From Deltaproteobacteria bacterium (GTDB lineage: Bacteria > DRYD01): DNA of 5,949 bases. The stretch is taken from assembly GCA_028276365.1 (NCBI GenBank), contig JAPYWL010000063.1:1-5949 (forward strand). The letters run 5' to 3'. Positions within the stretch are counted from its first letter, which is position 1. Each line of letters starts with the position of its first letter. The notes beneath the pieces are model-generated. The model was not told the origin of the DNA. It ran no database searches and saw only the letters and a program-made list of their open reading frames with translations. Shown in pieces: positions 1 to 2,050 of this stretch. The translations under genes and the position numbers were made by a program.

Positions 1-852
1 AATATCACCAAATAAATTAGGTAAAACAAATACTTGAAACTCGCTTCTTCTTTTTTCATCTATTAGCTTAGCTGTCATAATATCAATAAACCAATCATCA
101 GCAACTATTTCAGGATATTCTTTACTTACTTCATAAAAAACTTTTAAAAATATTCCATCTGTAGTTTTAATAACATTAGCTTTATTAACTGCAGTAACTT
201 TCTTAAATCCATTTTTCTTAGCATACTCAAAAGCTAATTTAACTATTCTATATGTTCCAAAATAACTAATTAATCTAAAATCTATTCCGAATTCATTTTT
301 TATTTCGATTCCATAAGATCCAAGAGCATATAGATCTTCTGTATTTTCCCTAAAAAACGTCCAGTTAATATTTAATTTAGGGACTCTAACAGGCCTAACA
401 TTAGCAAATAAATCTAGTACTTTTCTGATAGCAACATTAGCACTTTCTATATTAGGCATATTATCTCCCGCTTTAGGAGTAGTAGTAGGACCTTTAAGAA
501 GAACATGACACTTAACAATTTGCTCTAAAACATCATCAGGAATAGGCTTTAAAACTTGGATTCTTCTTTCTATTGTTAAACCATCTATGTAATGAAATTT
601 AACTTTACCTTGTTTTACTTCATTAGCTAAAACATATTCTAATATTCGTTGAGCTTCTTTAGTAATATAAGGTCCAATTCCATCACCACCTATAACCCCT
701 ATAATAATTGGGCTTATCTTAGAATAGTCAATAAATTCAGTATCATTCTTAGTTTTATTAATCCTTTCATATTCTTTTCTTAGAAGATTTCCAAAATGTT
801 CTTTAGCTTGATTAATAGCTTCTTCAATATTATTAAACTCTATAACTTTCAT
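1..852 (-). CDS. icd: Isocitrate dehydrogenase, N-terminal 284 residues (C-terminus outside window)
   Basis: This encodes a member of the isocitrate/isopropylmalate dehydrogenase family, most likely isocitrate dehydrogenase, which oxidatively decarboxylates isocitrate to 2-oxoglutarate in the cytoplasm. It was translated directly from the minus strand. Family motifs appear in order: GDGIGP (56-61), KGPTTTP (120-126), SANVAIRK (137-144) with NVRPVR (151-156), FRENTEDLY (167-175), VNKANVIKTTDG (222-233) and VLPNLFGDI (276-284). By spacing, S137, N139, R143, R153, R168 and Y175 match the isocitrate-binding S113, N115, R119, R129, R153 and Y160 of E. coli Icd. K224, D257 and D283 fit the catalytic Lys and metal-binding Asp positions. 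The reading frame is open at base 1, so roughly the last third is missing. The ATG at 852-850 is preceded in frame by TAA at 861-859, which fixes the start region, although the Shine-Dalgarno (AAAAG) is weak. The polar N-terminal 45 residues are longer than in many relatives. The NAD or NADP preference cannot be judged because the cofactor loop is missing. An isopropylmalate or homoisocitrate dehydrogenase is less likely. Confidence 0.87.
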   Translation of the reverse strand, partial: MKVIEFNNIEEAINQAKEHFGNLLRKEYERINKTKNDTEFIDYSKISPIIIGVIGGDGIGPYITKEAQRILEYVLANEVKQGKVKFHYIDGLTIERRIQVLKPIPDDVLEQIVKCHVLLKGPTTTPKAGDNMPNIESANVAIRKVLDLFANVRPVRVPKLNINWTFFRENTEDLYALGSYGIEIKNEFGIDFRLISYFGTYRIVKLAFEYAKKNGFKKVTAVNKANVIKTTDGIFLKVFYEVSKEYPEIVADDWFIDIMTAKLIDEKRRSEFQVFVLPNLFGDI

Positions 853-869
853 AATCTTTTAATAAGAAT

Positions 870-934
870 GCAGACCTATTTATATTCCGCCTTAACACTT
901 TAGGAACCTTAGTCTGCAGGCGGTAATAGTTCCC
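870..934 (-). ncRNA. Candidate structured leader RNA (interleaved pseudoknot) upstream of icd
   Basis: The 95-base gap between pilT and icd carries three complementary pairs on the minus strand, in the order A-B-C-A'-B'-C'. A is GGGAACT (934-928) with GGTTCCT (908-902): 7 pairs, two of them G-U at the ends. B is CCGCCT (923-918) with AGGCGG (892-887): 6 Watson-Crick pairs. C is GCAGAC (917-912) with GTCTGC (875-870): 6 Watson-Crick pairs plus a possible G-U (911/876). A further helix, CTATT (929-925) with AATAG (880-876), could replace part of A. The segments are much richer in G and C than the surrounding DNA. The last segment ends 17 bases before the icd ATG, within reach of an initiating ribosome, so translational control is plausible. 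No T-run follows, which argues against a simple terminator. I recognise no known riboswitch class. The complementarity is seen directly; the regulatory role is inference, and the helices may be mutually exclusive. Confidence 0.5.
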
Positions 935-947
935 AATTTTTAGTTAC

Positions 948-2036
948 TTATTTCTTTTTAGAAGAAGCACTAATTAATCTTTCAAATTCTTCAGGATTAA
1001 ATGCTGCTGCCATTGCATATTCATAAGATATTAAGTTTTGTAAATACAAATCTCTTAAAGATTGATCAAATGAGATCATACCATCTTCTGCTCCTGATTG
1101 AATAGCGTTAGTAAGCATATGAGTTTTACCTTCTCTAATAAGATGTCTAATAGCAGGAGTACCTGTCATTATTTCCAGTGCTAAAACTCTACCACTACCA
1201 CTGGCCTTAGGTATTAAATTCTGAAAAACTACACCCTCTAAAATCATAGATAACTGTACTCTAATTTGATGTTGTTGATGAGGTGGAAAAGTATCTATTA
1301 TTCTATCTACAGCATTAGCACAGCCGGTAGTATGTAGAGTCCCTAAAACTAAGTGTCCAGTTTCAGCAGCAGTTAATGCTGTTTGAATTGTTTCAAAATC
1401 CCTTAGCTCACCTACTAATATAACATCAGGATCTTGCCTTAATGCAGATTTTAATGCATTAGCAAAACTATGAGTATCAGCACCAATTTCTCTTTGAGAT
1501 ATTATAGCTAATTTATCTTTATGTAAAAATTCTATAGGATCTTCAATAGTAATAATATGACATTTTCTATTAGAGTTAATATAATCAACCATAGCAGCTA
1601 AAGTAGTAGATTTACCTGAGCCTGTAGGCCCAGTTACTAAGACCAACCCTCTGGGTCTTAATGCTAAATACTTAAAAATTTCAGGTAATCCTAATTCATC
1701 AATGGTAAAGGGTCTAGAAGGTATGATTCTGACCGCTAAAGCCCAAGAGTTTCTCTGAAAATAAGCATTACACCTAAATCTCGCTAAATTAGGTACACTA
1801 TAAGCAAAATCTAGCTCTTTTTCTGCTACTAATTTAGCTTTTTGTTGCTCAGTAAGAATTCCTTCTATCATTTTTCTTATACCATTAGGAGGTATAACCT
1901 GAGGAATAGCTGGTTGTAATTCTCCATCAATTCTTAACATAGGAGGAGATCCCGCTTTAATATGTAAGTCACTAGCATTTTTTTCTACCATCATCTTTAA
2001 CAATACATCAAGAGGGTTTTCAGAAACTACACTCAT
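948..2036 (-). CDS. pilT: PilT, type IV pilus retraction ATPase
   Basis: PilT is a hexameric cytoplasmic AAA+-like secretion ATPase that drives type IV pilus retraction (twitching motility, DNA uptake). The protein has 362 residues from the ATG at 2036, close to the usual 340-370. The N-terminal PAS-like region includes ASDLHIKAGSPPMLRIDG (21-38). Walker A is GPTGSGKST (136-144) and the Asp box is IITIEDPIEF (161-170). Walker B is VILVGELRD (205-213) with catalytic Glu210, and the His box AAETGHLVLGTLHT lies at 223-236 with H228 and H235. AIRHLIRE (295-302) matches the conserved C-terminal AIRNLIRE motif characteristic of PilT, which separates it from PilB/GspE extension ATPases; these also carry a tetracysteine zinc site that is absent here. 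The PilT-like paralogue PilU cannot be fully excluded. An in-frame GTG at 2045 would add three residues, but it lies inside the Shine-Dalgarno AAGAGGTG, so the ATG six bases downstream is preferred. The gene starts 35 bases after the zinc-ribbon/propeller gene, suggesting co-transcription. Confidence 0.95.
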   Translation of the reverse strand: MSVVSENPLDVLLKMMVEKNASDLHIKAGSPPMLRIDGELQPAIPQVIPPNGIRKMIEGILTEQQKAKLVAEKELDFAYSVPNLARFRCNAYFQRNSWALAVRIIPSRPFTIDELGLPEIFKYLALRPRGLVLVTGPTGSGKSTTLAAMVDYINSNRKCHIITIEDPIEFLHKDKLAIISQREIGADTHSFANALKSALRQDPDVILVGELRDFETIQTALTAAETGHLVLGTLHTTGCANAVDRIIDTFPPHQQHQIRVQLSMILEGVVFQNLIPKASGSGRVLALEIMTGTPAIRHLIREGKTHMLTNAIQSGAEDGMISFDQSLRDLYLQNLISYEYAMAAAFNPEEFERLISASSKKK

Positions 2037-2042
2037 TACATT

Positions 2043-2050
2043 CACCTCTT
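2043..2050 (-). promoter_or_regulatory. Shine-Dalgarno of pilT
   Basis: AAGAGGTG lies six bases upstream of the ATG at 2036-2034. The last three bases form an in-frame GTG that a gene caller could take as the start. Because the site would then have no separate ribosome-binding sequence, the ATG is the better start. Confidence 0.8.

Follow-up and report, generated by a model that had tools for sequence, protein, structure and literature searches.

An uncatalogued RNA element with crossing helices upstream of unrelated bacterial housekeeping genes, with a probable role in translation

Results

Comparative sequence analysis confirms that the leader of an icd-like gene, in a window (the whole stretch of DNA that was analysed) of 5,949 nucleotides from a Deltaproteobacteria bacterium, holds a previously uncatalogued, conserved, folded RNA. 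This element probably controls translation of the genes that it precedes. It consists of three helices in A-B-C-A'-B'-C' order at 936-870 of the minus strand, every helix crossing both others, and covariance searches recovered at least about 100 relatives. The element represents an RNA family that is new to the catalogues, covaries strongly and has a rare topology. Unrelated housekeeping genes carry the same fold ahead of them, at a constrained distance from the AUG, unlike gene-specific riboswitches and leaders for ribosomal proteins. Should the element govern the initiation of translation, it would be a portable control element of general purpose, in bacteria that are not yet genetically tractable.

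Structure of the icd leader

The leader spans 947-853 of the minus strand. Its features, and the genes on either side, are as follows.

1-852, minus strand: icd-like ORF (isocitrate/isopropylmalate dehydrogenase family; Pfam Iso_dh, 1.3e-43), continuing beyond the window edge
853-869, minus strand: spacer of 17 nt between C' and the start codon of icd; no clear Shine-Dalgarno sequence
870-876, minus strand: helix C (S2) 3' arm GGTCTGC, 7 bp with the 5' arm (alignment A3)
877-886, minus strand: A-rich linker L3, AATATAAATA, 10 nt, near-invariant as WATANAAATA in 49 copies
887-891, minus strand: helix B (S1) 3' arm GGCGG (same 49-copy alignment)
900-908, minus strand: helix A 3' arm GGTTCCTAA, within loop L2, pairing with TTGGGAACT; same support as the 5' arm
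911-917, minus strand: helix C (S2) 5' arm GCAGACT, double changes at 6 of 7 pairs on alignment A3
918, minus strand: loop L1, single base T, with alternative pairing to A892 or A869
919-923, minus strand: helix B (S1) 5' arm CCGCC, 99% of cells paired, double changes at 4 of 5 pairs in 49 copies
928-936, minus strand: helix A 5' arm TTGGGAACT, still paired, though entirely different in sequence, in the icd leader of the same genus (L266) and in ten distant copies
948-2045, minus strand: upstream pilT-like ORF (named by eye from the sequence), whose stop codon (950-948) ends 11 nt before helix A; same gene order in G001

Helix A (936-928/908-900) has 9 bp, two of them G-U, and T918 could lengthen either B, by pairing with A892, or C, by pairing with A869. 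All three pairs given in the original prediction are present; helix A is two pairs longer than given there, and the linker has 10 nt instead of 11. A chance origin of the triple is ruled out, with 0 of 3000 dinucleotide-preserving shuffles of 947-853 giving an A-B-C-A'-B'-C' set in which each helix has at least 6 bp and at least three G-C pairs. Nested folding of the leader is unremarkable (z = -0.72), which is expected because crossing helices cannot form in nested folding.

Covariation of the three helices

Each helix is independently supported, since its covariation is seen on members that were found without using that helix. Model R1, a covariance model built from the G001 copies, contained helix A pairs only; a pattern search with CCGCC...GGCGGWATANAAATA is, like R1, independent of C pairing. 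Models R2 and then R3 contained C pairs only, with B and A unpaired.

Copies found without C pairing have an entirely different yet complementary helix C (GCTGGG/CCCAGC, CCAGCG/CGCTGG, GCCAAGGT/ACCTTGGC and AACAGGGG/CCCCTGTT). On alignment A3, 92% of the helix C cells are paired, whereas slid controls reach 52% at most, and the double changes at 6 of its 7 pairs amount to 30 cells versus 11.9 in shuffles (0 of 500), where cell counts are not event counts, paralogues and close relatives not being independent. A3 is the clean test for this helix; the C statistics on alignment A4 alone are partly circular because R2 selected for C. For helix B, unpaired in the search models, 99% of cells are paired and compensatory changes occur at 4 of 5 pairs (49 copies). 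Helix A in the ten distant copies totals -136 kcal/mol, versus -65 for swapped partners (0 of 20000 permutations).

The original prediction of three interleaved helices in a structured RNA is thus upheld by the shuffles and by the covariation of all three, and the conservation with compensatory change looked for in related genomes is present in each helix. The other reading proposed there, competing folds of a translational switch, is weakened because compensatory change keeps all three helices in the same molecules.

Anatomy of the element across copies

The core of the element is an H-type pseudoknot, with crossing stems B-C-B'-C', a short L1 and L3 probably over the groove. It is made of helix B (consensus CCGC[C/T]/[G/A]GCGG), a loop of 0-1 nt, helix C of 6-8 bp with unconstrained sequence, and the conserved A-rich linker WATANAAATA. 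Minimal copies of about 40 nt contain S1 (B, 5 bp), L1 of 0-1 nt, S2 (C), L2 of 0-3 nt and L3; lacking helix A, they do not form a pseudotrefoil. In longer copies, A' within L2 pairs with a stretch 2-5 nt upstream of B, which gives the pseudotrefoil ABCABC, and three mutually crossing helices are found in the window and in ten distant copies. Helix A is optional in the window's family, where only part of the long copies form it and several G001 repeats have it damaged, and it forms in 10 of the 10 distant members examined. Few non-helical positions are conserved. In B and L3, sequence conservation exceeds what pairing alone needs.

Some loci are harder to place. L310 (G001) and L348 (a viral contig) have CCGCCTG/CAGGCGG as a simple hairpin followed by AATATAAATA, with no C helix, and are either copies or look-alikes. 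L455 (G002:C3), upstream of a minus-strand ORF, is a degenerate-looking copy with B and the linker and no evident C helix, which suggests that the models miss some of the more diverged copies.

Distribution and expansion

The element is present in six of six sampled genomes of the window's family. At E<=0.1 these have at least 12 (G000), 28 (G001), 17 (G002), 11 (G003), 8 (G004) and 13 (G005) copies. The one other genome of the same order (73% complete) had no copies among the matches listed at E<=0.1, and distant, unrelated genomes have one or two copies each. L430, a match within E<=0.1, looks like a false positive and calibrates the weak end of the matches. Of 14 viral contigs matching a tighter pattern, none had a convincing C helix on inspection. 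Three viral loci (L335, L336 and L339) have in common CCGCC...GGGGCGGTATA.AAATA beside a conserved repeat-like stretch, with no C helix; from these sequences they are related to each other and probably not to the element.

G001 is the only other genome of the same genus that was compared, and in it the leader again lies between a pilT-like ORF and icd. There (L266) B, C and the linker are conserved, and helix A has a different sequence yet 9-10 bp. This helix A is common to the G001 paralogues, so the copy may have been overwritten by the expanded family and not have evolved in place. The genome contains 16 near-identical core copies (L128, L262-L275 and L278), each directly upstream of a co-directional ORF. 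Judged by their sequences, these are a recent burst of a regulatory RNA inside one genome. A plain mobile repeat was rejected, as all 16 face the gene alike and the structure is retained in diverged copies from five other genomes.

The 16 copies also carry a 3' hairpin, CAAAAGTGTATA...TATACACTTTTG. Its loop reads AAGAA or TTCTT in differing copies (L267, L275 and L278 against L263, L264 and L266), and the hairpin thus appears inverted between them.

Position relative to start codons

With few exceptions the copies immediately precede a co-directional start codon, often within an operon. Among 84 copies with an ATG start, 51 have C' at 15.6 +/- 4.1 nt from the AUG. The remaining 33 have a longer gap; about 30 of these have a hairpin (D) that starts directly at C' (median folding z -4.6) and shortens the distance left before the AUG to a median of 13 nt. 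Most distant copies seem to carry a hairpin after C', in several followed by a Shine-Dalgarno sequence (by eye). On the other side, 28 of 74 copies have the upstream stop codon no more than 15 nt from B and 48 no more than 50 nt, and in many it is 0-6 nt from the core. With the stops this close to B there is often little or no room for a promoter, and the element frequently fills the intercistronic gap.

In terms of Shine-Dalgarno sequences, these are present in 1 of 12 element genes versus 28 of 98 others in the window's genome (p = 0.18), in 5 of 38 genus-wide versus 28 of 98 (p = 0.075), and in 42% versus 45% in the sister genus. A replacement of the Shine-Dalgarno sequence by the element is thus suggestive in genus g1 and absent in g2, and the differences are not significant.

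Genes served

The genes downstream of the element in the window's family include icd, mdh, nuoE, nuoC, ppdK, aldolase, acs, prs, recA, rpmF, rpsD, rpsO, rpoZ, frr, tig, asnS-like, atpB, atpH, ybaB, acpP, fabD, enoyl reductase, asd, a KBL/BioF-like enzyme, cutA and csm2 (rpsD, acpP, fabD, nuoC, cutA, asd and KBL/BioF assigned by eye from sequence). In distant genomes they are argG, pyruvate-dehydrogenase E1-like, paaK-like, acsB-like, glyQ and an ftsY-like start, all named by eye without a family search. A pathway shared by the downstream genes of the window's family and the distant genomes was sought and none was found. The original prediction had considered a metabolite-binding leader specific to icd; dozens of unrelated genes carry the element, and the sister-genus copy adjoining icd precedes mdh, which speaks against such a leader. 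A ribosomal-protein autoregulatory leader is likewise not supported: copies before rpsD, rpsO and rpmF exist, yet most precede other genes.

Several genes behind the element (argG, paaK, glyQ, asnS-like, acs, ppdK and prs) encode AMP-forming enzymes. This run is possibly a coincidence or an energy-charge signal.

Proposed function and alternatives

From the computed structure, conservation, position and lack of gene specificity we infer a cis-acting mRNA element that would act on translation initiation of the next cistron, a proposal to which we give an even chance. The pseudoknot forms in 5' leaders and between cistrons, just ahead of the region where ribosomes bind the downstream gene. The A-rich third loop probably occupies the minor groove of stem B, which is rich in G-C pairs, as a putative triplex, and helix A, formed by the upstream stretch and the second loop, can add a third crossing stem. 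The 3' border is held about 13-16 nt before the AUG, either directly or through the filler hairpin D abutting C'. From there the element may set ribosome access and keep the start region clear of upstream RNA. Otherwise it may be a docking site for a shared trans-acting factor, with the ribosome, a ribosomal protein or another RNA-binding protein as candidates. A protein-binding site, also raised in the original prediction, is a possible reading of the leader.

The 5' edge of an initiating ribosome matches a point 13-16 nt before the AUG, and the constant end point there, whatever the filler hairpin, points to translation initiation. However, a riboswitch acting on translation or a site of RNA processing could sit in the same position, gene-proximal copies are partly expected of any motif in 5' leaders, and the downstream genes have no clear common Shine-Dalgarno deficit. 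A stronger version, which we consider quite unlikely, is a natural ribosome-docking RNA of bacteria: with its edge 13-16 nt ahead of the start codon, the pseudoknot would bring in or place the small ribosomal subunit, largely independently of Shine-Dalgarno sequences. If this holds, each cistron inside an operon could be translated at a rate of its own.

The preQ1 class shows that a small H-type pseudoknot with an A-rich L3 can act as a riboswitch, and with this precedent the element could be a metabolite aptamer, with S1 and the A-rich L3 as pocket, that switches translation of many genes on or off in response to a general signal such as adenylate or another nucleotide. The conservation of B and L3 beyond pairing needs and the position favour it, as does, as a weak lead, the AMP formed by several downstream enzymes (partly by eye). 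We consider it doubtful, as the downstream genes are unrelated housekeeping genes that do not belong to one pathway, the one or two copies in unrelated genomes precede differing genes, no helix includes the Shine-Dalgarno sequence, and an L1 of 0-1 nt with an L2 down to about 0-3 nt leaves little room for a pocket. The intercistronic position and the very compact knotted fold would also suit an element of mRNA processing or stability, that is, a self-cleaving ribozyme, an endonuclease site or a barrier to 5'-3' exonucleases protecting the downstream cistron. Ribozyme insulators are an established precedent for a pseudoknot and a 3' hairpin near the ribosome-binding site, an arrangement that the element recalls. 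RNase J is the known bacterial 5'-3' exonuclease, but of 11 carrier genomes only one has a match above the cut-off of its family (TIGR00649), and the five examined from the window's family (79-90% complete) have none, so an RNase J roadblock is contradicted there. Few non-helical positions are conserved in the element and no Rfam ribozyme family matches, self-cleavage itself being judged by Rfam only, and processing is on the whole unlikely.

The feature could also belong to the DNA itself, as a promoter, a mobile-element end or inverted repeats bound by a protein: the TATAAA-like linker does resemble a -10 box and the G001 copies are near-identical repeats with flanking hairpins. This is highly improbable, because the C and A arms change wholly yet stay complementary, of which a DNA-binding protein has no need; 16 of 16 near-identical G001 copies are oriented alike to the gene, unlike random insertion, and many copies have the upstream stop just 0-6 nt from the core.

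Relation to known RNAs

Rfam 15 gave nothing on the element above the gathering threshold in the window and 19 relatives' loci. Even at permissive E-values there was no credible match, in line with the original prediction of a new RNA, and no description of the motif was found in the open-access literature. The preQ1-type riboswitches are similar in their small H-type fold, A-rich third loop and place near the start codon. They differ in that no queuosine genes were seen among the downstream genes, no Rfam family matched and the known pocket would need a longer L1.

The icd and icd-II motifs of Proteobacteria, which also lie upstream of icd, are predicted three-stem junctions, the P1 of icd-II involving the ribosome-binding site (PMC8632094). 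By that description they have no crossing helices and no other genes, which sets the element apart; identity with them was rejected, the element having three mutually crossing helices instead of a three-stem junction.

The nearest functional analogues are two translational operators. The gene 32 mRNA pseudoknot of phages T4 and T2, for autoregulation by gp32, lies 67 nt upstream of the start codon. It resembles the element in its H-type fold, its coaxial stems, its place in a 5' leader upstream of a start codon and the A/U-rich RNA that follows and covers the ribosome-binding site (PMC3014915). In contrast, dozens of unrelated genes share the element, which stops 13-16 nt short of the AUG and often has a third crossing helix. 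The rpsO (S15) operator also contains a pseudoknot (PMC3014915), and one copy of the element (L439) precedes an S15 gene; however, the element is not rpsO-specific and has no Rfam match.

Lastly, the full A-B-C-A'-B'-C' form of the element has exactly the topology of the pseudotrefoil (ABCABC), the genus-1 subclass 1C. This is a class of topologies and not an RNA family; a 2012 survey counted 51 sequences in it (PMC3390330).
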